Source: Gammaproteobacteria bacterium (GTDB lineage Bacteria; Pseudomonadota; Gammaproteobacteria; Pseudomonadales; Pseudohongiellaceae). From it: a stretch of 64,000 bases of DNA. The stretch covers positions 84,007 through 148,006 of the forward strand of contig BPDI01000002.1 of NCBI GenBank assembly GCA_019654215.1, read 5' to 3'. The notes beneath the pieces were generated by a model. It had not been told where the DNA came from. It searched no databases and saw nothing but the letters and a program-made list of their open reading frames with translations. This document shows positions 52,880-64,000 of this stretch, piece by piece. Position numbers and translations under genes: made by a program. Position 1 is the first letter of the stretch, and every line of letters begins with the position of its first letter.

Positions 52880-54994
52880 CTAATTTTCGATCCAGACTGG
52901 CTGGGTGAAAGCACCGTTTCGAGCGATATCCCAAACTTCGATGCGGACCCAGCTTCGATTAGATAAATCCATATTTCTATCTATAGTTTCTGAATCAAAT
53001 TCAGTGGTATGAGATAGATCGATTCGATCTCTATAGATCGTGGTGCCATCGCCACTGATGATTTCCATATAAGAAAGCGGGTAGGTCCACTCCAAGTCCG
53101 CGATTAACTTGGCAGACTCATTTTTGTTAATTGTTTCGCCACTTTCCATACCCTCGACCGAAAAGTCTACGATGAGAACTTCGCCAGTCGTAACAAAGAA
53201 TTTTCCATTGGCAAGGGCATCAACTACTGGTTGCCAGCCGTCTTCGTAGTCAGGAATTTCATCCAGCCTTAAATAGTTAATGTTCATGGTGCCAAAGAGT
53301 TCGTAGTCTTCATAGATCTTAAAAATATCTACTTCGCCGAGAATGTACTTTCTTGCTCCCCAGTTCGCCATGTCATCTTCAAGATCCAGCACACGCCATC
53401 CCAACATTTCTCTCGAATAATCTGCCGGCATGGCTTTCCAGGCGCCACCAAGAAAATGTTCGCTTAGAAAAAAATCCTGATCGTTGTAGCCATCAGGGAA
53501 ACCTGTCGAGCCTTTAACTCGAGGATGAGCTGTCCAGGCTAACCCGTCCTCTTGTTCTAAAAGATTAAGCACGTCATCGGCACTTCCTACGTGATACACA
53601 GTGCCGTAACCTGGTATGTCTTGCACGAACGGTTGTCCCTGATTCTGATTTAGTACCCAATACACGGGCTTAGGAAACATGCTTAACCAGTGACTGTTCA
53701 AATGTACGTTGGGCTCTTCCCCTGGGATAAGCAAAAAATCGTCTCCGGACAAACGCGCAAATTCATCATGCATGACTTTCAATTCAGCCAGGCGTTGATC
53801 GGTTTCAGTTCCAGGGGTGCGACCAAAATGAAACTCGGCCATATGCACCATATCCACACCCATGCGCTTAAAGAAATTCACGAAGTCAGGGTCTTCTAAG
53901 CCAGCCGGTACGCCTATTGTATTTTGTTCCTGCTGCATATTGATGAAATCCATTGAATGTTCGTGATGATAATGGCTGGATAAAGTCTTATAACCTTCGA
54001 GAGCTTTAAAGGAATCGCTACGCGTATAACGTTTAACGATTTCTAAATTATCTAAACCTGATTGCTCAGACAGAAATAACAGAACCCCTAATTTTTGAAC
54101 TGATGATGGTTGTGCGTTTACCCAGGGGACGAAACGACGATCCCCCATGGGCGGTTGCCTTACACCAAAGGCGAAACCATCGATCATGTCTAAGTATTCC
54201 GCTCCCGCCCAGTTATAGCCATAGTTGTCTGCAAAATCTAAGGGATACAAATACTGATGGGGGAAAGGGGATATGACTAGAGATCCATTAGTATTTGATA
54301 AAGCTAAACTGCGATAACGTGTCTTATAAACACTGGCAGTAGAATTTAAGATCGGATCAATGTGAGGATTGTCGTGAGCATCAAACCACTCAACATGGTG
54401 GCCTTCGGTTTCTGGTTTCGCCAGTCCGACATGGTATAGAAACGCTGTTGCAGGACGTTCGGTCGAAACTCTTGCTTCCATGTGCACGAATGGACTGTCG
54501 TGATAAAGGATAAAGGCAAGGGAACCAGCGAAGTTAGTACTACTCAGACCTTCGATTTCAATTGTAGCGCGGCCACCTTCTGTAGATACGTTTACGCTTT
54601 CTGGGATCAAATAGCCTTTTTCAACAGAGTAAGGACGTGTAGGCACTCGATCAAAAAATATTTCCCAGCCATCCCTCAGTTCCAGGTCTCTATCGCCTAT
54701 CCAAAACAAATAGTTCGGATCGACTTCTTCGATGATGGATTCGCCGTTAATACCCAGTTCTCGAATTAGTGGTGCTGCCGCGCTGTTACCTCGGCGGGGA
54801 ATGAATTGCAGATCTATATAGGCTCTTCCTTCTGGTGCATTCCATTGCAGCACTAAACCATCATCGCGTGTAGTTAAATCAAAATCACCGTTGGCCATGA
54901 ATCCTTGTTGAGTAATGTCTGCAGCAAGAATAACTGTTGAGAAAGACGCTAAAGTCAGAGCAAAGAAAGTCGCAATCAATTGCCTCATGTTCAC
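52880..54994 (-). CDS. Secreted PHP-superfamily metallohydrolase-like protein (CehA/McbA-like)
   Basis: 704 residues with a signal peptide (QLIATFFALTLASFSTVILAADI). The first ~330 residues are beta-rich with many aromatic residues. The C-terminal half has histidine/aspartate clusters typical of PHP/CehA-McbA metallohydrolases: LSSHYHHEHSMDF, VDMVHMAEFHFG, LLIPGEEPNVHLNSHW and LAWTAHPRVKG, which could hold two or three divalent metals. The final ~120 residues form a beta domain (TYPLSYMEIISGDGTTIYRD). It probably hydrolyses an ester or phosphoester in the periplasm. It lies 11 bases downstream of the TonB-like lipoprotein and the receptor, suggesting that uptake and hydrolysis go together. 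Substrate unknown. Confidence 0.75.
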   Translation of the reverse strand: MNMRQLIATFFALTLASFSTVILAADITQQGFMANGDFDLTTRDDGLVLQWNAPEGRAYIDLQFIPRRGNSAAAPLIRELGINGESIIEEVDPNYLFWIGDRDLELRDGWEIFFDRVPTRPYSVEKGYLIPESVNVSTEGGRATIEIEGLSSTNFAGSLAFILYHDSPFVHMEARVSTERPATAFLYHVGLAKPETEGHHVEWFDAHDNPHIDPILNSTASVYKTRYRSLALSNTNGSLVISPFPHQYLYPLDFADNYGYNWAGAEYLDMIDGFAFGVRQPPMGDRRFVPWVNAQPSSVQKLGVLLFLSEQSGLDNLEIVKRYTRSDSFKALEGYKTLSSHYHHEHSMDFINMQQEQNTIGVPAGLEDPDFVNFFKRMGVDMVHMAEFHFGRTPGTETDQRLAELKVMHDEFARLSGDDFLLIPGEEPNVHLNSHWLSMFPKPVYWVLNQNQGQPFVQDIPGYGTVYHVGSADDVLNLLEQEDGLAWTAHPRVKGSTGFPDGYNDQDFFLSEHFLGGAWKAMPADYSREMLGWRVLDLEDDMANWGARKYILGEVDIFKIYEDYELFGTMNINYLRLDEIPDYEDGWQPVVDALANGKFFVTTGEVLIVDFSVEGMESGETINKNESAKLIADLEWTYPLSYMEIISGDGTTIYRDRIDLSHTTEFDSETIDRNMDLSNRSWVRIEVWDIARNGAFTQPVWIEN

Positions 54995-55005: not shown

Positions 55006-55755
55006 TTAATCGGGAAGCTGCCAGTCGAATCTATATTGTACATTATCAACTCGAACAGAGCCGTCAAAGATAATGCGCGGTTCAAAGCGTAATCGATAGG
55101 CGGAGTTGATGGCTTCATCGTTAAAGACACCCGGTGGTTGGCTTTCTACTATCGCAACATTTTCCACCATGCCCTGCTCAGTCACATCGAAGCTCACTAC
55201 AACATAGCCTTCAATACTCAGTTCTTCCGCGACGTCAGGATAGTTCGGTGTGATGAAGCGCATGGGAATGAGTTCACGAAATACCACTTCGTCGGACGGT
55301 GGTTCCACTAGTATGGAATTCTGTTCTTCTAATGCGTAGCGAAATACATAGCGAATATCGTCGAGGGTTTCTCCCCGAGTGTTGTCGAACATCATGCGCC
55401 GAGCTGCGTTTACCGCGGACTGTCGGAAATATCCGATAGGTTGTTCTTCAATCGCACGAATCGTATTACCAATCACTTCACCTTCTTCATCAACTGAAAA
55501 TTCAACCATCACCCAACCTTCGATTCCCAGATTGCGTGCCCTTAATGGGTAAAGGGGTTCAGCAACTCTGCGTGTTATCAACCCACGGGTGAAATTAGGA
55601 GGAGGAGTGAGCTCTGGAGAAGAGCTAGTAGAAACAGTTCGAGAGCCTTCGTCGACAACAACACAGCTGCCTAGCAAGAATAGACTTGCCAGTAGTGAGA
55701 AATGGTTGAGGTAATGCTTAATCCGTAGCCATTTTTTTAGGTAGTTAATCCCCAT
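55006..55755 (-). CDS. TonB-like lipoprotein with two TonB C-terminal domains
   Basis: About 249 residues from the ATG at 55755 (the track's start at 55788 is a TTG). A lipoprotein signal (FSLLASLFLLGSC, lipobox LLGSC) replaces the usual TonB membrane anchor, and there is no long proline-rich spacer. Two TonB C-terminal domains follow in tandem: VAEPLYPLRARNLGIEGWVMVEFSVDEEG and FITPNYPDVAEELSIEGYVVVSFDVTEQG, each ending in a conserved F-x-P/R region. Normal TonB has one such domain and an inner-membrane helix. It lies between the receptor and the metallohydrolase, so it probably interacts with the receptor's TonB box, although energy transduction from a lipoprotein is not established. Confidence 0.78.
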   Translation of the reverse strand: MGINYLKKWLRIKHYLNHFSLLASLFLLGSCVVVDEGSRTVSTSSSPELTPPPNFTRGLITRRVAEPLYPLRARNLGIEGWVMVEFSVDEEGEVIGNTIRAIEEQPIGYFRQSAVNAARRMMFDNTRGETLDDIRYVFRYALEEQNSILVEPPSDEVVFRELIPMRFITPNYPDVAEELSIEGYVVVSFDVTEQGMVENVAIVESQPPGVFNDEAINSAYRLRFEPRIIFDGSVRVDNVQYRFDWQLPD

Positions 55756-55791: not shown

Positions 55792-57927
55792 TTAGAAAGT
55801 AGTTCTCACTCTTAGAGCCAGTTCCATCCCATTTCCGTTGCAGTAATCTTCAATTTCTCCCACCACGCCATCAACTGTCCGCCCCTTGAATCGTGTTCTC
55901 TTTCGGCAAAATTCATTTTCCGTAATGTTGCGAGATTCGAAACGGAAAGTAACATTACCAAAGGCTACTTTTTCAACGTAGGCAGAGAGATAGGGTTGGT
56001 TTATTTGTTCTTCTATATCGTCTATGTCGTAAGCCTTGCGCCCAGTACTACCATTGGAATTGTTGCCATAGTTAAAGCCATAAGTAAGTTGTTGGCTGGT
56101 TATGTCATGACGGAATCCCATATTCAATGACCAGCGGCCATTATTTCGCTGGCGTCGCTTAATTCTAAGGAACGGATCAGTAAATTCAGAATCTCTCAAT
56201 CTTATGCCTGTGGTAAGCAAAGCATTTTGAATGCTGAAACGATCTAATTTGGCACTTACATCAAGATTCAGGCCATAGCGGTATCCATCTCCTATATTGC
56301 CTCGAGCAGATTGCAGATTAACGGAAGATGGAGATACATCGACTTTGTCGATATGGTCCTCTACGTCGCGGTACCAAAATTGTGAATTCACGACGCCGGC
56401 ATCATCGGGTAATCGAAACTCCAGATTAAGTTCATAGCGCCAGGATTGCTCCTGAACGATTTCTGGATTTCCTGCCTGAGTGTTTTTATCTTCGTCGCTA
56501 CTATCAGTGGAAGCGCTGAAATCAGAAAAACTCAGTTGGTCTACATCTTTTTCAATTCCTGCTCGCAATTGGATTGAGGGAGTTATGTCATAGCGGTAAT
56601 CAATTTTGGGTTTTATAAAATCAAAATCTCTTTCCCTGTGCACATCCCCTGATTGCTCAATTGCAGAAGTTTCATAAAGCAGAGAGCTTTCTACTGCCAT
56701 GCGGCCATTGATCTGCCAATTATGAACGGCAAATGGTTCATAGCGAAACTCTTCGACAGTGGAGAAGCTGTTATCAACGCTAACTGGAACCAGGTTACCG
56801 AAATCAGCAGAAGGCGTTCCGGGGATGTCCAGCCCCATTCTTAAGCTAGAATCTCTAATGGTTTGCGCGCCTTCAATTCCCAGTTCTATGGCATGGGCGA
56901 GATCGAGGTCCCAGGTATAAGAGCTGCGGGCAATGCGTTCACGGTCCCTACCAGTTCCAGCAAGAAATAGATTGGGTTTTTCTAACATGTTTTCTAGATT
57001 AGAACGAACTCTGTCATAACCAAATTCGCGGTCATTGACAATAAATAAGAAGCGATACTTGGCGCCATTATCAAATGTGTATTCGTAATCTCCACCTATC
57101 TCCCAGTTGGTTCGATCGCTGTCACTCACCTCAGTTTGTATAAGGGAAGTATTATTAATCAGATCGTTGATTGTGCGAAAGCGGTCCTGTGGCGAGCGAG
57201 TGCGATCTTCTGCCAAAGCATTAAACTGAATCACACTGCGCTCCATGGTATAACCAAGGTTCATGCTGGCTGCAAACTCTGTGCGGTCCCGTGTTGTTTC
57301 TTCTTTTCGAGTTTCGATGAGGTTGCCAGCGCCATCGTAACTAAACTCTCTAGCGCGACTATTGCGGTAGTTAGGTTCGGCTTCAAAAGAAAATAAATAA
57401 TTGAGCCCCTCGGATTGGCCGCTAAGTGAAACGGAGCCACCTGGGTCTAAGGTACCGTCTTGTTTGCGATCAGTGCGCAACTCTACCGAAGTACTGGAAC
57501 GAGAAGGGCTATCCACCAAAACAACATTAACCACCTGGCCTCCGCTACGCACATCGAGTACTTCAGAAGTGCCACGAATAATCTCAATGTATTCAACTTG
57601 GTCTGCGGAAATGCGATTGAGTTGATCGCGACCTTCATTGTTTTTGCCGGTAATCCGCTGCCCGTTGATTAAAACTTCGCCTTCTCCAGAGCCAAGGCCG
57701 CGCCCGCTATTTCCTCCGCGCAATGCCAGGCCAATACCAGGAATCCGATTGAGCATGTCGTCAGCAGATACTGGGAAGTATTCGGCAAAATAACTGGCGG
57801 GGTAAACAACAGTAGAATCGTCCGAAGGAAATTCAGGTTGTACTAATTGCGCCGAAACTCCAGGTGCTGCAGTTAACAGCGAGAGTATGACTAATGCTTT
57901 TATACTTTTCGTAGGGTGAAATTTCAT
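55792..57927 (-). CDS. TonB-dependent outer membrane receptor
   Basis: 711 residues from the ATG at 57927, chosen because a signal peptide starts there (TKSIKALVILSLLTAAPGVSAQ). The plug domain has YFPVSADDMLNRIPGIGLALRGGNSGRGLGSGEGEVLINGQRITGKN and EYIEIIRGTSEVLDVRSGGQVVNVVL; a beta-barrel of many strands follows, ending in Phe (ALRVRTTF). It is intact. The same plug layout, with nearly the same motifs, recurs in the truncated gene at 63.0 kb. It heads an operon with the TonB-like lipoprotein and the metallohydrolase. Substrate unknown. Confidence 0.85.
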   Translation of the reverse strand: MKFHPTKSIKALVILSLLTAAPGVSAQLVQPEFPSDDSTVVYPASYFAEYFPVSADDMLNRIPGIGLALRGGNSGRGLGSGEGEVLINGQRITGKNNEGRDQLNRISADQVEYIEIIRGTSEVLDVRSGGQVVNVVLVDSPSRSSTSVELRTDRKQDGTLDPGGSVSLSGQSEGLNYLFSFEAEPNYRNSRAREFSYDGAGNLIETRKEETTRDRTEFAASMNLGYTMERSVIQFNALAEDRTRSPQDRFRTINDLINNTSLIQTEVSDSDRTNWEIGGDYEYTFDNGAKYRFLFIVNDREFGYDRVRSNLENMLEKPNLFLAGTGRDRERIARSSYTWDLDLAHAIELGIEGAQTIRDSSLRMGLDIPGTPSADFGNLVPVSVDNSFSTVEEFRYEPFAVHNWQINGRMAVESSLLYETSAIEQSGDVHRERDFDFIKPKIDYRYDITPSIQLRAGIEKDVDQLSFSDFSASTDSSDEDKNTQAGNPEIVQEQSWRYELNLEFRLPDDAGVVNSQFWYRDVEDHIDKVDVSPSSVNLQSARGNIGDGYRYGLNLDVSAKLDRFSIQNALLTTGIRLRDSEFTDPFLRIKRRQRNNGRWSLNMGFRHDITSQQLTYGFNYGNNSNGSTGRKAYDIDDIEEQINQPYLSAYVEKVAFGNVTFRFESRNITENEFCRKRTRFKGRTVDGVVGEIEDYCNGNGMELALRVRTTF

Positions 57928-58186
57928 GCGGAAACGGTGTTCTTTCTCTTTGATCTTTTGGATCTTTTCCTGATTTTCGTGGTTGCCTTGTGGTGCTACC
58001 AGTACTGGAATGAAATTGTACCGATTCCTATTCACTCAGTCTGTGACAATTTGTAGGGAAAAAACGAAGGAATTCTGACACTTGCGTCATAATTCGTTTG
58101 TTGTAAAAGAATGATTTTTAGAGATAAATTACGAGTGAAAAAATATCCCCACCAGATTACTGATCGGGATATTTTGAGAAACAAAG

Positions 58187-59103
58187 CTAGTTTGTTTCGT
58201 AGCTCGAAAAGCTGTCTTCGCCTTCGCCGCCGATAAAAACTGAATACTTGGCATCGCCGGTGAAGTTTGCTTTCAAGAACGCATAGACATATTTTCCTTG
58301 GGCTTCTAGCTCAGATCCTTGATTGGCGGGAATCATGTGTCCGCCTTCGGCAAATTCCATGTATACCTTCGAAGTTGAAGCATTAATGGAATCATAGAGC
58401 ATGCGTGCATGGGTATCTGGTGGGGCAATCGATCGTCAGCAGTTGCGATAATAAGCGTTGGGGTTGTAACACCATTCAAATCACCTTCGAATGACTGACC
58501 TAGTTCACAACAATAAGGAGTAAGAGGAAAGACCCCTTTAATTGCATCGCCTAACTCTTCGGCTGCTCTTAATGAGGCGCCGCCCCCTAAAGAATGCCCC
58601 ATGATGGCGATTTGGCTCTCATCGAGCTTGTTGGCGAGAGGGCTCTGGCTTGTTTGCGTTCTCGCGCTTAATCAATTCAATCCCGGCAATCAACGCGTTT
58701 TTTCTTTGTTCGAGATTATCTTCTGGCGTGTTGGTTTCAATAATCGCAGTGATTATGCCAACAGATGCCCGCATAGGACCCCACCAGTCATATACCTCTG
58801 GTGTGCCACGAAATCCTGGCGACATAACAACGGCACCGTTGGGGAGATCGAAACTCAAGGTCAGCGGATAGAAAATGGTCACACTGGCAAATTCGTCAAG
58901 ATCTGTGCCGGTCTCATAAGTGCGGGCTTCAAATAATCGATCATCGAAGAAATTTGCTGCATTTCTTGCAAATGTGCGTCCTTCAGGACGATATCGACCA
59001 GCGCTATTATCTTGGGCGGAAACCGTGAAAGCGGCAAGGTGCTTGCTATTAGAGCAATCCCCATTAGATAAGCCGTCAGGGATTTCATTCTCAGTAAATT
59101 CAT
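58187..59103 (-). CDS. Secreted alpha/beta-hydrolase resembling PET hydrolase/cutinase (frameshifted)
   Basis: Restored across about three to four indels. From ATG 59103 (AGAGGT upstream) a signal peptide ends near FTVSAQ, then GRYRPEGRTFARNAANFFDDRLFEARTY and TIFYPLTLSFDLPNGAVVMSPGFRGTPEVYDWWGPMRASVGI follow. The nucleophile elbow is GHSLGGG. FPLTPY, TPTLIIATADDRLAPPDTHARMLYDSI and YMEFAEGGHMIP give the expected acid (D) and histidine. The order and spacing match polyester hydrolases (compare GxSxGGG, PLTPW and the D/H pair of IsPETase), and the tail VYAFLKANFTGDAKYSVFI also fits. Close relatives among cutinases and dienelactone-hydrolase-type proteins make polyester activity unproven. Confidence 0.65.
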
Positions 59104-59396
59104 TTCAGTTAACCTCTCGTTTGTCATCGTGGTTAATCTAGAGCATTTTTATTTTTAGTCCTGGGTCAATGGGACCTGCAGAAAAATCAAATATAGCAAA
59201 GAGTTCAGGGGAGAGAAACAGAGTATAGATCCGGGCCCCGGGCCCCAAAATTGGGCTTTCAGCGCTTTCTTGGGGAGCCATGGACCTGAAATCTAATTCC
59301 TATTATTCTCAGTCTTCCTAAAAACAACTTGAAGTATCTATAAGTCATGAAGTTTTTGCTGAATTTCTTGTTAATTTGGACCCAAGTCCTGAGTAA

Positions 59397-60139
59397 ATGG
59401 TTAGTGTGGGTGTCACCCTCAGTTTAATCTTGGTTACCTCTGCTCAGGAATTGGGGGATCACACATACTCTACCGAGGCTATTGAGCGAGGAAGTCGAAT
59501 CTACTCCCGCGAATGCGCCTTATGCCACGGCCCTCAGGGGGATATCGTCGATGGTGTCAATCTTCGCACTGGCTATTTAGAAACGTGCGCTCAGATGAGG
59601 ACATACGCCGGGTGGTTATTCGGGCCCCGGGGGAAGGCCAAATGCCTGCGTTTGGATTAAGCGATAACGATCTCAATGCCATCGTTGCCTACATTAGAGC
59701 CGGGTTTGATCCTGAAGGAGTAGCATTCGCATTGGTGATCCGGCTCGTGGGCAAACTTTGTTCGAAGGAAAAGGAGAGTGTGCTAGTTGTCATCGTATTG
59801 ATGGTGTGGGACCAAGAACCGCGCCTGATTTATCAGAGATTGGTGCTATTCGCACACCGGCTTCATTACAAAGAAATTTATTGGATCCTGCTGCGGCGAT
59901 ACTACCAATTAACAGATCAATTCGGATCTAACACGGGATGAAGAGACTGTTACTGGTCGCGTTTGAATGAAGATACCTATACGGTCCAAGTAATTGATTC
60001 CAATGAGCAGCTTCGTTCGTTTCGAAAATCTGACTCGTCAATTATGAATCAGGTGCAGCCTAGTAAGTCACCAACCACATTAAACAGCGATGAGGTTGCA
60101 GATGTGGTTGGCTATTTATTAACTCTGCGAGGTCAATAA
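59397..60139 (+). CDS. Periplasmic dihaem cytochrome c (frameshifted)
   Basis: Restored across several frames from the ATG at 59397. A short signal (SLILVTSAQ) is followed by ERGSRIYSRECALCHGPQGDIVDGVNL, whose CxxCH binds the first haem. After a shift FRNVRSDEDIRRVVIRAPGEGQMPAFGLSDNDLNAIVAYI supplies the Met ligand (GQMPAFG). The second domain reads RIGDPARGQTLFEGKGECASCHRIDGVGPRTAPDLSEIG (second CxxCH) and ends DVVGYLLTLRGQ. At least four indels occur. Its stop overlaps the PQQ dehydrogenase start (TAATG), so it probably accepts electrons from that enzyme. Confidence 0.75.
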
Positions 60140-61789
60140 TGAACCAGTTAATTCTTTCTTACGCGACAAATTTTTTCATTGTCGGCCTAAGCACGGCGAT
60201 TCAGTTATCGCACAAGTTCCTTATGACAGAATCTTAAACGCCAACGAGGAACCGCATAACTGGTTGACCTATAACGGTGGTTATATGAGTCAACGTCATA
60301 GTTTGTTGGATCAGATAACTAAAGAGAATGTGGAAAACCTGGAGCTAAAGTGGGTTCTCCAAAATCAGGTATTCGGTGCTTGGCAATCTAATCCGATTAT
60401 CGTTGATGGCATCATGTATGTTACTGAAGACCTAATAGTGTGATGGCAGTTGATGCAGTAACCGGCAGGGTTTTTGGAAGTATCGTCATCAGAATGCGAA
60501 AACGCAGAGTTTGTTGTGGTGCAAACAATCGCGGAGTGGCGGTACTCAATGACAAAGTTTACATGGGAACCCTAGATGCAAATCTACTCGCTCTCGACCG
60601 TATTAATGGACAGCTTCTATGGAAAACTGAGGTCGGAGATGTAAACCTCGCCTACTCAATCACAATGGCTCCCTTAGCAGTTAAAGACAAAATAATGGTG
60701 GGCGTTGGCGGTGGAGAATTCGGCATTCGTGGTTATGTTGCCGCTTATGATGCTGAGACTGGCGAAGAGGCCTGGAAGACTTACACCATTCCTGGGCCTG
60801 GTGAGCCAGGCCATGACAGTTGGGAAGGAGATGATTGGGAACATGGCGGTGCGCCGGTTTGGATTACCGGTTCCTTTGACCCTGATCTAAATTTGACTTA
60901 CTGGGGGGTTGGTAACCCTGGTCCTGATTGGAATGCTGGACAACGTCCTGGAGACAATCTTTATTCAGATTCTGTCATTGCATTGGATGCGGACACCGGC
61001 GAATTAACCTGGCACTTTCAATTTACGCCTAATGAGGCTATGACTACGATTCGGTTCAGGTTCCTGTATTGGCCGATATGGTTTGGCGTGGTGAGGTGAA
61101 ACAACTAATGATGTGGGCTAACCGTAATGGTTATTTCTATGTACTAGATCGAACCAATGGTGAATTCTTGGAAGGAAAACCCTATGTGCGAGTGAATTGG
61201 TCTAGGGTCTGGATGAAAATGGCCGACCGATTCCGACGCCGCAACCAGAAGGAATGCCGACTTATCCAGGCAATCAGGGTGGGACTAATTGGTACCCACC
61301 TTCTTATAATCCTAATACTGGCTTGTTCTATTTTAGTGCCTGGGAAAACTACGCCACTATATACAGAGCAGAAGAATCAGAATACGTGCCGGGCCAGGCG
61401 TTTCTGGGAGGAGGATTCTCTGTTTAGCACCGTCACCCGGAGCACCTACTATTGGAATTGGGCGCACTAATCCGATTAACAATTGGACTGATGAAGTTGG
61501 ATACGCTTCATTAAAAGCTATGGATCCCCAAACTGGCGAACAAGTCTGGTCATATAATCAATTTGATGTCAGTGATAGTGGTATGTTGACTACTACTACC
61601 GATGTTTTGTTTACCGGCGGGCGTGAAGGTTATTTTCATGCAATCGATGCAGAGAGTGGCGAACTACTCTGGAATGTTGGTCTGGGTGGTCAGATCGTAA
61701 TGGCGCCAGTTACTTACATGGTAGGTGGCGTTCAATATGTTTCTGTGATTTCTGGAAACAGTTTGTCGACTTTTGCATTAGGAGACTAA
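60139..61789 (+). CDS. PQQ-dependent alcohol dehydrogenase-like quinoprotein (frameshifted)
   Basis: Fragments over several frames give one eight-bladed propeller of about 540 residues: NWLTYNGGYMSQRHSLLDQIT, VMAVDAVTGRVFW, AEFVCCGANNRGVAVLNDKV (the vicinal Cys-Cys of PQQ dehydrogenases), EPGHDSWEGDDWEHGGAPVW, YWGVGNPGPDWN, WHFQFTPNEAYDYD (catalytic aspartate region), LLWNVGLGGQIVMAPVTYMVGGVQYVSV. It starts at ATG 60139 with a signal-like N-terminus. Quinoprotein alcohol dehydrogenases oxidise alcohols or aldehydes in the periplasm and pass electrons to cytochrome c, here encoded just upstream. PQQ synthesis genes are not in the window. The substrate is unknown. About six indels are needed. 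Confidence 0.82.
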
Positions 61790-61820
61790 TTAATAGTCAT
61801 AAGGGGTCAGGATTAAAATT

Positions 61821-62825
61821 TTGAGGAAGGTGCTTCGATTTTAATTGTTACTTTTGTGAGCTTGGGCATTAATGCTCAGGTTAACGATCCGATTCACTCC
61901 CAGTGAAGACTTTGAAATCGACTATAACTTTTTCAAAATGCCTGTAGGAAGAGCTATTGGTTCGACTGCCGGCATAAGTTTGCATCCTGATGGCAGTAGT
62001 TTTTGGGTTTTCGATCGTTGTGGTGCGAATGACTGTGTTGGATCGGACCTCGATCCCATTATGCAGTTCGATTTAGATGGCAATCATCTTATTAGTTTTG
62101 GCGCCAACATGTTTGTGCGCCCTCACGGTGTATACGTGGACCATGAGGGCAATGTCTGGGTAACTGATGGAGAAGGGCCAAACGGTGAAGACCCTCGTAG
62201 AGATGGCAAAGGACACCAGGTTTTCAAATTCAGCCCAAGCGGTGAAGTTCTCATGGAGCTGGGTAAGCCTGGGGTTTCTGGAGATGGTCCTTATGAGTTT
62301 AACCAACCTTCCGCAGTTTTAGTTACCCCAAAAGGAGATATTTTCATCGGCGATGGTCATGGCGGCCGTTCCAATAGTCGCATCATGAAGTACAACTCCG
62401 AAGGAGAGTTCATTTTAAGCTGGGGAGCTCAAGGATCAGAACCTGGAAACTTTGCCGTACCCCATGACCTGGCCATGGACTCTCTCGGCAGATTGTTTGT
62501 CGGCGATCGCGGCAATAATCGAGTACAAGTATTCGATAAAGAGGGAAACTTTATTCTTGAATGGGAACAGTTTGGTAGACCCAGTGGAATATTTATCGAT
62601 GACAATGACATGCTTTATGTTACCGACTCATCTTCGACGCCGAGAAGCAATCCTGGTTTTGACGAAGGAATAAGAGTAGCTAGTGTGCACGATGGAAAAG
62701 TTACTCTGTTTCTAGATGATCCTCATGAAGATGGCACTCAAGAAGGCGTCGTGGTTGATAAGCAAGGCAATATTTACGGATCTCTTACCGCTGGTATGGC
62801 GCTACGGAAGTACGTATTGAAGTAA
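61821..62825 (+). CDS. Exported NHL-repeat protein, peptidyl-alpha-hydroxyglycine amidating lyase-like (5' frameshift)
   Basis: ORF 61872..62825 has NHL blades such as PHGVYVDHEGNVWVTDGEG, QPSAVLVTPKGDIFIGDGHGG, VPHDLAMDSLGRLFVGDRGNNRVQVFDKEGNF and RPSGIFIDDNDMLYVTDSSS. The two PH.. blades and the layout match bacterial proteins annotated as peptidyl-alpha-hydroxyglycine alpha-amidating lyase family, but such names are mostly by similarity. Upstream in other frames ILIVTFVSLGINAQVNDP gives a signal peptide, so the true start is near the TTG at 61821 (or an earlier codon). The restored length is about 330 residues. It lies 32 bases after the PQQ dehydrogenase, in the same orientation. Confidence 0.75.
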
Positions 62826-63019
62826 AGATTTGTTTTAGATGACCTTATGCTTGGTTGTCTGTTTCTCGGTAAAAATTCTTACTCGCTACCAGTCTTATTT
62901 CCTTCATTACTGAGTGCATTTCTATTCTCCTGGGCTGATCCAGCCGAATACAATTTATAACATCTGTGCGAGGAGGCTTATGTCATACTCGCCTCCAATT
63001 TGATTTACGCTAGGAAAAT

Positions 63020-64000
63020 ATGTTCTCAAAACAAGGCTTTATAACCCAACATCTTTTCTCTGTTGATCGTAGCGGTTAGTCAGGCTGCTTTCGCTCAGGA
63101 CAATCTCGGTGAGGATTCGACGGTGCGCTATCCCGCCATCTATTTTTCTGAGTGGGCTCCGGTTACCGCGCAAGATATGTTGGACCGTATTCCTGGTTTA
63201 GATGCTGGCGGTGGCTTTGGACCTCCCGGCGGCGGTGGTGGAGGATTCGGCGGTGGACCACCCGGGGCGGCGGATTCGGAGGAGGGCCTCCTCCGGGGTT
63301 TTTTGGTCGTGGTGGCGGTGGTGGCGGTGGTCGCGGATTCGGCGGCGGCAGTCGAGAGACTGAAATCCTCATTAATGGAAAGCGTACTGCAGGGAAAAAC
63401 AATAGCACGGGAGGACAGCTCACCCGCATCACCTCAGATCAAGTCGACTATATTGAAATTATACGTGGTACTTCAGGTGAGCTAGATGTGCGTGGCAGTG
63501 GCCAGGTAGTTAACGTAGTTTTATATGACACTTTTACTGATTCTACGATGCAGTATCAAGCGCAAGCTTCACAATCTGATAACAATACAATTTCTCCATC
63601 AGGAACTTTTTCCTACAGTGGGCAAATTGAAGGTTTAAATTTTTTAGTAAGTGCCAGCCACAGCGATAATTACTTTAAAAGTATTAGCAAGGAAAATTCT
63701 ATCCTCGGTGACTTTTCTCCTAATGATTTTATTCAAGAGATTCGTGAATCAGATGGGAAACAATTCAACTCTCAGTACTAATTTAGATTACGAAATAAAT
63801 GGAAATAGTTCTGCGCGTTTCAATGCCCTCTATTCTGATGGTGATCGACCTAGCGAATTAGTACGTCACACAATAGATCTAAGCGTGCAGCCCAACCTTA
63901 CAACTTATCAAAGAGAAGATGCACCGTCGGAGAATGATAATTGGGAGATTGGTGGCGACTATGAATATATTACCGAACAGGTAGTCGTTATAAAATTTTG
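63020..64000 (+). CDS. TonB-dependent receptor with Gly-rich plug insert, truncated by window end
   Basis: The start is an ATG at 63020 (AGGA before it). A signal peptide (VAVSQAAFAQ) follows a one-base correction. The plug domain reads STVRYPAIYFSEWAPVTAQDMLDRIPGL, then a stretch of about 45 residues that is nearly all Gly, Pro and Phe, broken by a frame error, then RETEILINGKRTAGKNN and VDYIEIIRGTSGELDVRGSGQVVNVVL. The barrel starts (TFSYSGQIEGLNFLVSASHSDN) and continues in another frame to the window end (NWEIGGDYEYITE). It is a paralogue of the receptor at 55.8-57.9 kb, which has only ~20 Gly-rich residues at this place. Confidence 0.8.

Follow-up and report, generated by a model that had tools for sequence, protein, structure and literature searches.

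The closest described relatives of the enzyme considered here are the type I and type II PET hydrolases, represented by IsPETase, LCC and 8eu0, and the type III enzymes PmC (2fx5), HaloPETase1 (9hl5) and R75estA. The defining features of type III, including the loop histidine essential in dsPETase05, are taken here from PMC12442448 and PMC13396203. According to the same sources, HaloPETase1, PmC and R75estA combine a tyrosine at the position of Trp185 (IsPETase numbering throughout) with a five-residue insertion at the place that concerns us below, and are active on PET. Among marine sequences, a 'functional PETase' motif termed M5 has been described, consisting of GGGG, Met after the nucleophile Ser and DxDxR(Y)xxFxC, and marine PETase-like proteins of groups M1-M4, which do not contain it, did not degrade PET (PMC12224614). 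Searches for plastic degraders in the ocean depend on family and motif matches of this kind, and the subfamily described here matches the family and fails the PET motif.

A secreted hydrolase of the PET-hydrolase family

An earlier note, made from the DNA letters, had proposed a secreted hydrolase with PET hydrolase and cutinase motifs at 58187-59103 of the window, that is, the 64,000-nucleotide stretch of DNA analysed in this work. The gene (PF12740) lies on the minus strand, from an ATG (MNLLRMK...) at 59103 to a stop codon ending at 58187, and it is interrupted by three or four single-base indels, as the note had supposed, while being intact in orthologues. The motifs GHSLGGG, PLTPY, LIIATADDRL(APP) and GGHMIP occur on this strand in that order, split between two reading frames. 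GHSLGGG, the nucleophile elbow whose serine corresponds to IsPETase Ser160, was placed at 58579-58599 by translation and alignment column mapping.

Three fragments of the gene matched PF12740 separately in the Pfam search (E 7e-9, 9e-7 and 3e-5), two of them alone scoring above the family cut-off (29 and 35.9 bits) and the third reaching 24 bits. Since these matches are independent and successive segments of the profile map onto successive DNA of the gene, the assignment is not due to chance. For L033, the closest intact orthologue, the PF12740 score rose to 162.5 bits against a curated cut-off of 28, thus answering the profile comparison that the note had suggested. Orthologues with 50-87% identity are found throughout the genus, a group of OM182/Pseudohongiella-related marine metagenome-assembled genomes; the gene is uninterrupted in dozens of congeners, with an open frame in about 60 orthologues, and the named carriers, which are MAGs of marine gammaproteobacteria, include OM182 bacterium MED-G28 as well as an uncultured Pseudohongiella. 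The export signal claimed previously was seen by eye at the N-terminus of orthologues, ending at ASA-QD or similar.

Structural comparisons led to the same family. The best PDB matches of the stitched window protein in a sequence search were PET hydrolases and cutinases, which again came first when a 21-sequence profile was used. An AlphaFold2 model was built for the intact, 87% identical L033 protein rather than for the stitched one (mean pLDDT 82.8), and the fold search with this model was headed by IsPETase structures, with a target-length TM of about 0.80 and an E-value of about 1e-21, the first fifty matches being IsPETase structures together with related PET hydrolases and cutinases. Dienelactone hydrolase, named earlier as the match that would speak against the proposal, was discarded, as L033 gave no DLH match at E 0.001 and its fold search was led by IsPETase; at the family level the proposal therefore held, with the pocket residues differing in subsite I. 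The orthologue in L056, a further intact locus, scored 135.8 bits against the BHET hydrolase model NF051441, under its equivalog cut-off of 520. As judged from these comparisons, the gene product is a real, conserved and secreted alpha/beta hydrolase of the PET-hydrolase family.

The active site and the YCCE insertion

Columns were mapped on an IsPETase reference that agreed in full with the PDB chain; the LCC reference differed at a few positions from PDB chain 8qrj, which looks like an engineered variant, and the HaloPETase1 and 8eu0 sequences were taken from printed alignments. The triad Ser160, Asp206 and His237 is conserved in the subfamily, as the note's proposed check of these positions had anticipated, and so are Trp96 and Trp97. 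The column of Tyr87 contains Tyr or Phe, the latter being the residue of the window, that of Ser214 contains His, and that of Ser238 contains Met or Asn in most members. Both substitutions announced earlier, His in the elbow at the column of Trp159 and Tyr for Trp185, were borne out by the mapping, the latter in every aligned sequence of the subfamily.

Directly after this tyrosine, six residues are inserted. The resulting signature, YCCELGQSFEGD, lies at 58480-58515 on the minus strand (contig 142486-142521) according to a DNA pattern match and the alignments. The insertion opens as YCCE[LP]G in all listed members except L019 (YCCERR), and its two adjacent cysteines are the only ones common to the whole subfamily in the alignments. 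Judging by the alignment and by the corresponding loop in type III, the insertion, which belongs to the loop of subsite I, would lie over the cleft, and its adjacent cysteines could perhaps form a vicinal disulfide that stiffens it. In a literature search pairing vicinal disulfides with PETase, no paper among those listed employed that term.

The hydrolase is about 31% identical to each of IsPETase and LCC. With type I/II enzymes it shares the fold, the triad, the aromatic residue at position 87 and secretion; the subfamily keeps the WWG motif of IsPETase and, as in LCC, a histidine before the nucleophile and His214. It differs from them in an incomplete aromatic clamp, where Tyr/Phe87 is kept but Trp185 is replaced and followed by the insertion, in the absence of cysteines 203, 239, 273 and 289, and hence of both IsPETase disulfides (C203-C239 and C273-C289), and in having GGGA in place of GGGG and Leu after the nucleophile, as in the window, or Met, as in part of the clade. 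Taken together, these changes make the clamp unlike that of type I/II and leave M5, examined as worded in the text of PMC12224614, unsatisfied: the window has GGGA and Leu after Ser, and the C-terminal motif has no cysteine in the alignment. The earlier likeness to PET hydrolases and cutinases thus holds for family, fold and triad, but it had overlooked the insertion in subsite I, the loss of disulfides, GGGA and the leucine.

The resemblance to type III lies in the tyrosine and in an insertion at the matching alignment position, which reads PYTIGLGH in type III and PYCCELGQ in the subfamily and comprises five and six residues, respectively. The common PYxxxLG pattern had prompted us to consider membership of type III, which was rejected because of the tree described below and three further differences: position 87 is Thr in type III, the elbow is GHSQG in type III versus GHS[LM]G here, and the type III disulfides are absent from the subfamily. 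In addition, Gln occupies the place of the essential loop histidine of dsPETase05, and identity to HaloPETase1 is 27%.

Phylogeny and distribution

A tree of 47 sequences united the YCCE subfamily in one clade with 100/100 support; it fell on the type I/II side, and its stem was long, at 1.09 changes per column. Its neighbours were PF12740 paralogues of the same genus that retain the tryptophan (L023, L026, L028-L031), the nearest sequences outside the subfamily, and one family-level relative. Unlike the subfamily, these paralogues preserve PW and GGGG, as well as GHSMG wherever it can be read, and have neither the insertion nor the cysteine pair in the cleft. PmC and HaloPETase1 appeared distant from the YCCE clade, each of the two groups being set apart on its own 100/100 branch. 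Although the root of this tree is arbitrary and its type III branch long, the distance makes convergence the simplest account of the likeness between the two loops.

The DNA pattern of the signature was found in 49 of the 84 genomes of the genus, and a slightly stricter pattern matched, among 274 genomes sampled from the class, only that of the window itself; control searches with reversed patterns gave zero matches. Within 295 order-level genomes, no match from outside the genus exceeded 44% identity, and the closest of them, L060, does not contain the signature. These searches place the subfamily, as found here, in a single marine genus (OM182/Pseudohongiella-related), and literature searches pairing OM182 or Pseudohongiellaceae with PET hydrolases returned nothing on it. 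A second, weaker PF12740-type homologue is present in about 26 genomes of the genus. The paralogues with tryptophan, present in part of the genus, are perhaps closer candidates for polyester activity, and likewise lack the C-terminal DxDxR(Y)xxFxC motif.

Gene neighbourhood

Divergently from the hydrolase, the plus strand carries a frameshifted di-haem cytochrome c gene (59382-60136; tblastn and Pfam, with two CxxCH in the intact L056 copy), a PQQ-dependent alcohol dehydrogenase of the methanol/ethanol family in five frameshifted pieces (60147-61780; recognized by locus comparison and from the intact L056 copy), an NHL-repeat beta-propeller protein (61890-62822; Pfam and locus comparison) and a second TonB-dependent receptor, also frameshifted and truncated where the contig stops (63045-64000; locus comparison). 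On the minus strand follow three intact genes, encoding a TonB-dependent receptor (55795-57927) and a protein with two TonB_C domains (55009-55755), both from Pfam and locus comparison, and a protein that weakly matches the CehA/McbA metallohydrolase model, below its cut-off (52883-54988; profile match and locus comparison). The receptor had been recognized before, while the supposed lipoprotein turned out to be the TonB_C protein and the supposed metallohydrolase the CehA/McbA-like one. In the intact arrangement the propeller, the dehydrogenase and the cytochrome c share one strand, with the hydrolase divergent and the receptor, the TonB_C protein and the CehA/McbA-like protein beyond it. In some relatives an additional hydrolase-like protein, which matched nothing in Pfam at E 0.001, is encoded between the receptor and the PETase-like gene (L056:11081-11863); its counterparts also occur near the PETase-like gene in L042-L044 and L047, and it is absent at that place in the window.

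The cytochrome c and dehydrogenase genes were divergent from and adjacent to the hydrolase in the window and in all ten distinct close loci, and flanked it in five of the nine loci of a clade of roughly 50% identity; two of these nine distant loci (L049 and L051) yielded no adjacent cytochrome c pair. The intact L056 dehydrogenase (L056:6972-8630) scored above the TIGR03075 cut-off, and its nearest PDB entries were the quinoprotein ethanol dehydrogenase structures 6zcv/6zcw. A TPNDxYDYD motif is conserved in every intact copy examined. The D-x-D it contains is, according to PMC11996626, a sign of lanthanide use, and the enzyme is predicted to be of the lanthanide type. For the earlier suggestion of an ester-using locus, this conserved pair, which it had not named, is a better basis than the genes it cited.

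Proposed function

The reading we consider the most probable, with reasonable though far from full confidence, is that of an esterase of the PETase/cutinase family, exported by Sec, with a rebuilt subsite I and acting on an ester other than PET, whose alcohol product would be passed to the PQQ dehydrogenase and then to the cytochrome c. The PF12740 protein would rely on the standard Ser-His-Asp mechanism; by homology, the backbone at [YF]87 and [LM]161 is expected to form the oxyanion hole. In subsite I, replacement of Trp185 by Tyr and the YCCExG insertion, perhaps stiffened by a disulfide, would have probably moved the specificity from PET to another ester, such as a natural polyester or oligoester. 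The released alcohol would probably be oxidised in the periplasm by the adjoining dehydrogenase, with electrons passing to the di-haem cytochrome c, as the conserved gene order suggests; alcohol oxidation by the PedE/PedH enzymes of Pseudomonas putida takes place in the periplasm in a similar fashion. This link to a predicted lanthanide-type dehydrogenase offers a concrete hypothesis for the natural role of the YCCE enzymes. Against such coupling, conservation of gene order inside a single genus may stem from common ancestry and not from function.

That objection belongs to the alternative with the next best standing, to which we give a minor but appreciable chance: a secreted ester or lipid hydrolase of a generic kind, functionally unconnected with polyesters and with the PQQ module, its gene order being merely inherited. 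The weaker Pfam matches to the PAF acetylhydrolase and acetyl xylan esterase families fit it, as does the failure of the marine M1-M4 proteins to degrade PET, whereas the adjacency of the cytochrome c and dehydrogenase genes has been kept over about 50% protein divergence in five of nine loci. A more ambitious version of events, which we regard as speculative and rather doubtful, would make the subfamily a fourth structural class of polyester hydrolase, one whose cleft contains a vicinal disulfide and which acquired the tyrosine and loop of type III independently, feeding a lanthanide-dependent alcohol dehydrogenase in the marine periplasm.

PET activity itself looks unlikely from the sequence, given the missing M5 motif, a judgement tempered by the type III enzymes, which are PET-active and yet fall outside M5 too. 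We would accordingly hold out little prospect for a functional PET hydrolase working in the manner of type III: the combination of Tyr for Trp185 with an extended loop is indeed that of the active HaloPETase1, PmC and R75estA, but the protein stands outside the type III clade, has none of Thr87, GHSQG, the type III disulfides and the histidine essential in dsPETase05, and departs from M5 in all three of its elements. The subfamily, which shows independently the Trp-to-Tyr and loop change of the PET-active type III enzymes, bears on whether this change marks polyester activity or just a different ester.

Frameshifts at the contig end

The source genome is a 73%-complete assembly of 71 contigs, and the contig ends where the window ends. 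In a comparison with L033, one aligner puts three single-base indels in the hydrolase, close to 59033, 58646 and 58432, and another counts four frame-changing ones. Indel density was measured solely by comparing the window with orthologous loci. Relative to L033, the second receptor, the propeller, the dehydrogenase, the cytochrome c and the hydrolase have 5, 2, 9, 7 and 4 frame-changing indels, which amounts to 27 over five genes in the final 6 kb of the contig versus 2 in the 5 kb before, the three genes ahead of the indel-rich part having 2, 0 and 0. The counts of 2 for the propeller and the first receptor are probably alignment effects, as each of these genes is a single open frame in the window. 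No compared gene showed nonsense substitutions with respect to L033, and the hydrolase differs from its orthologue by 143 silent and 36 replacement codon changes, in line with its intact neighbours. Because the indels are dense in the terminal 6 kb, nonsense substitutions are absent and the excess of silent changes is normal, errors of assembly or sequencing are the most likely source of the frameshifts. Genuine pseudogenisation of the hydrolase in this strain, as several frameshifts within one module (hydrolase, cytochrome c and dehydrogenase) adjoining intact genes might indicate, is very improbable in view of this substitution pattern and of a cluster of indels that includes the receptor gene and runs to the contig end.

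Pseudogene calls in the indel-dense part of the window (58140-64000) need the reads. Elsewhere in the window, between 38001 and 52000, long open frames cover little of the DNA (0.36-0.65 per 2 kb), which may reflect further frameshifts or real non-coding stretches.
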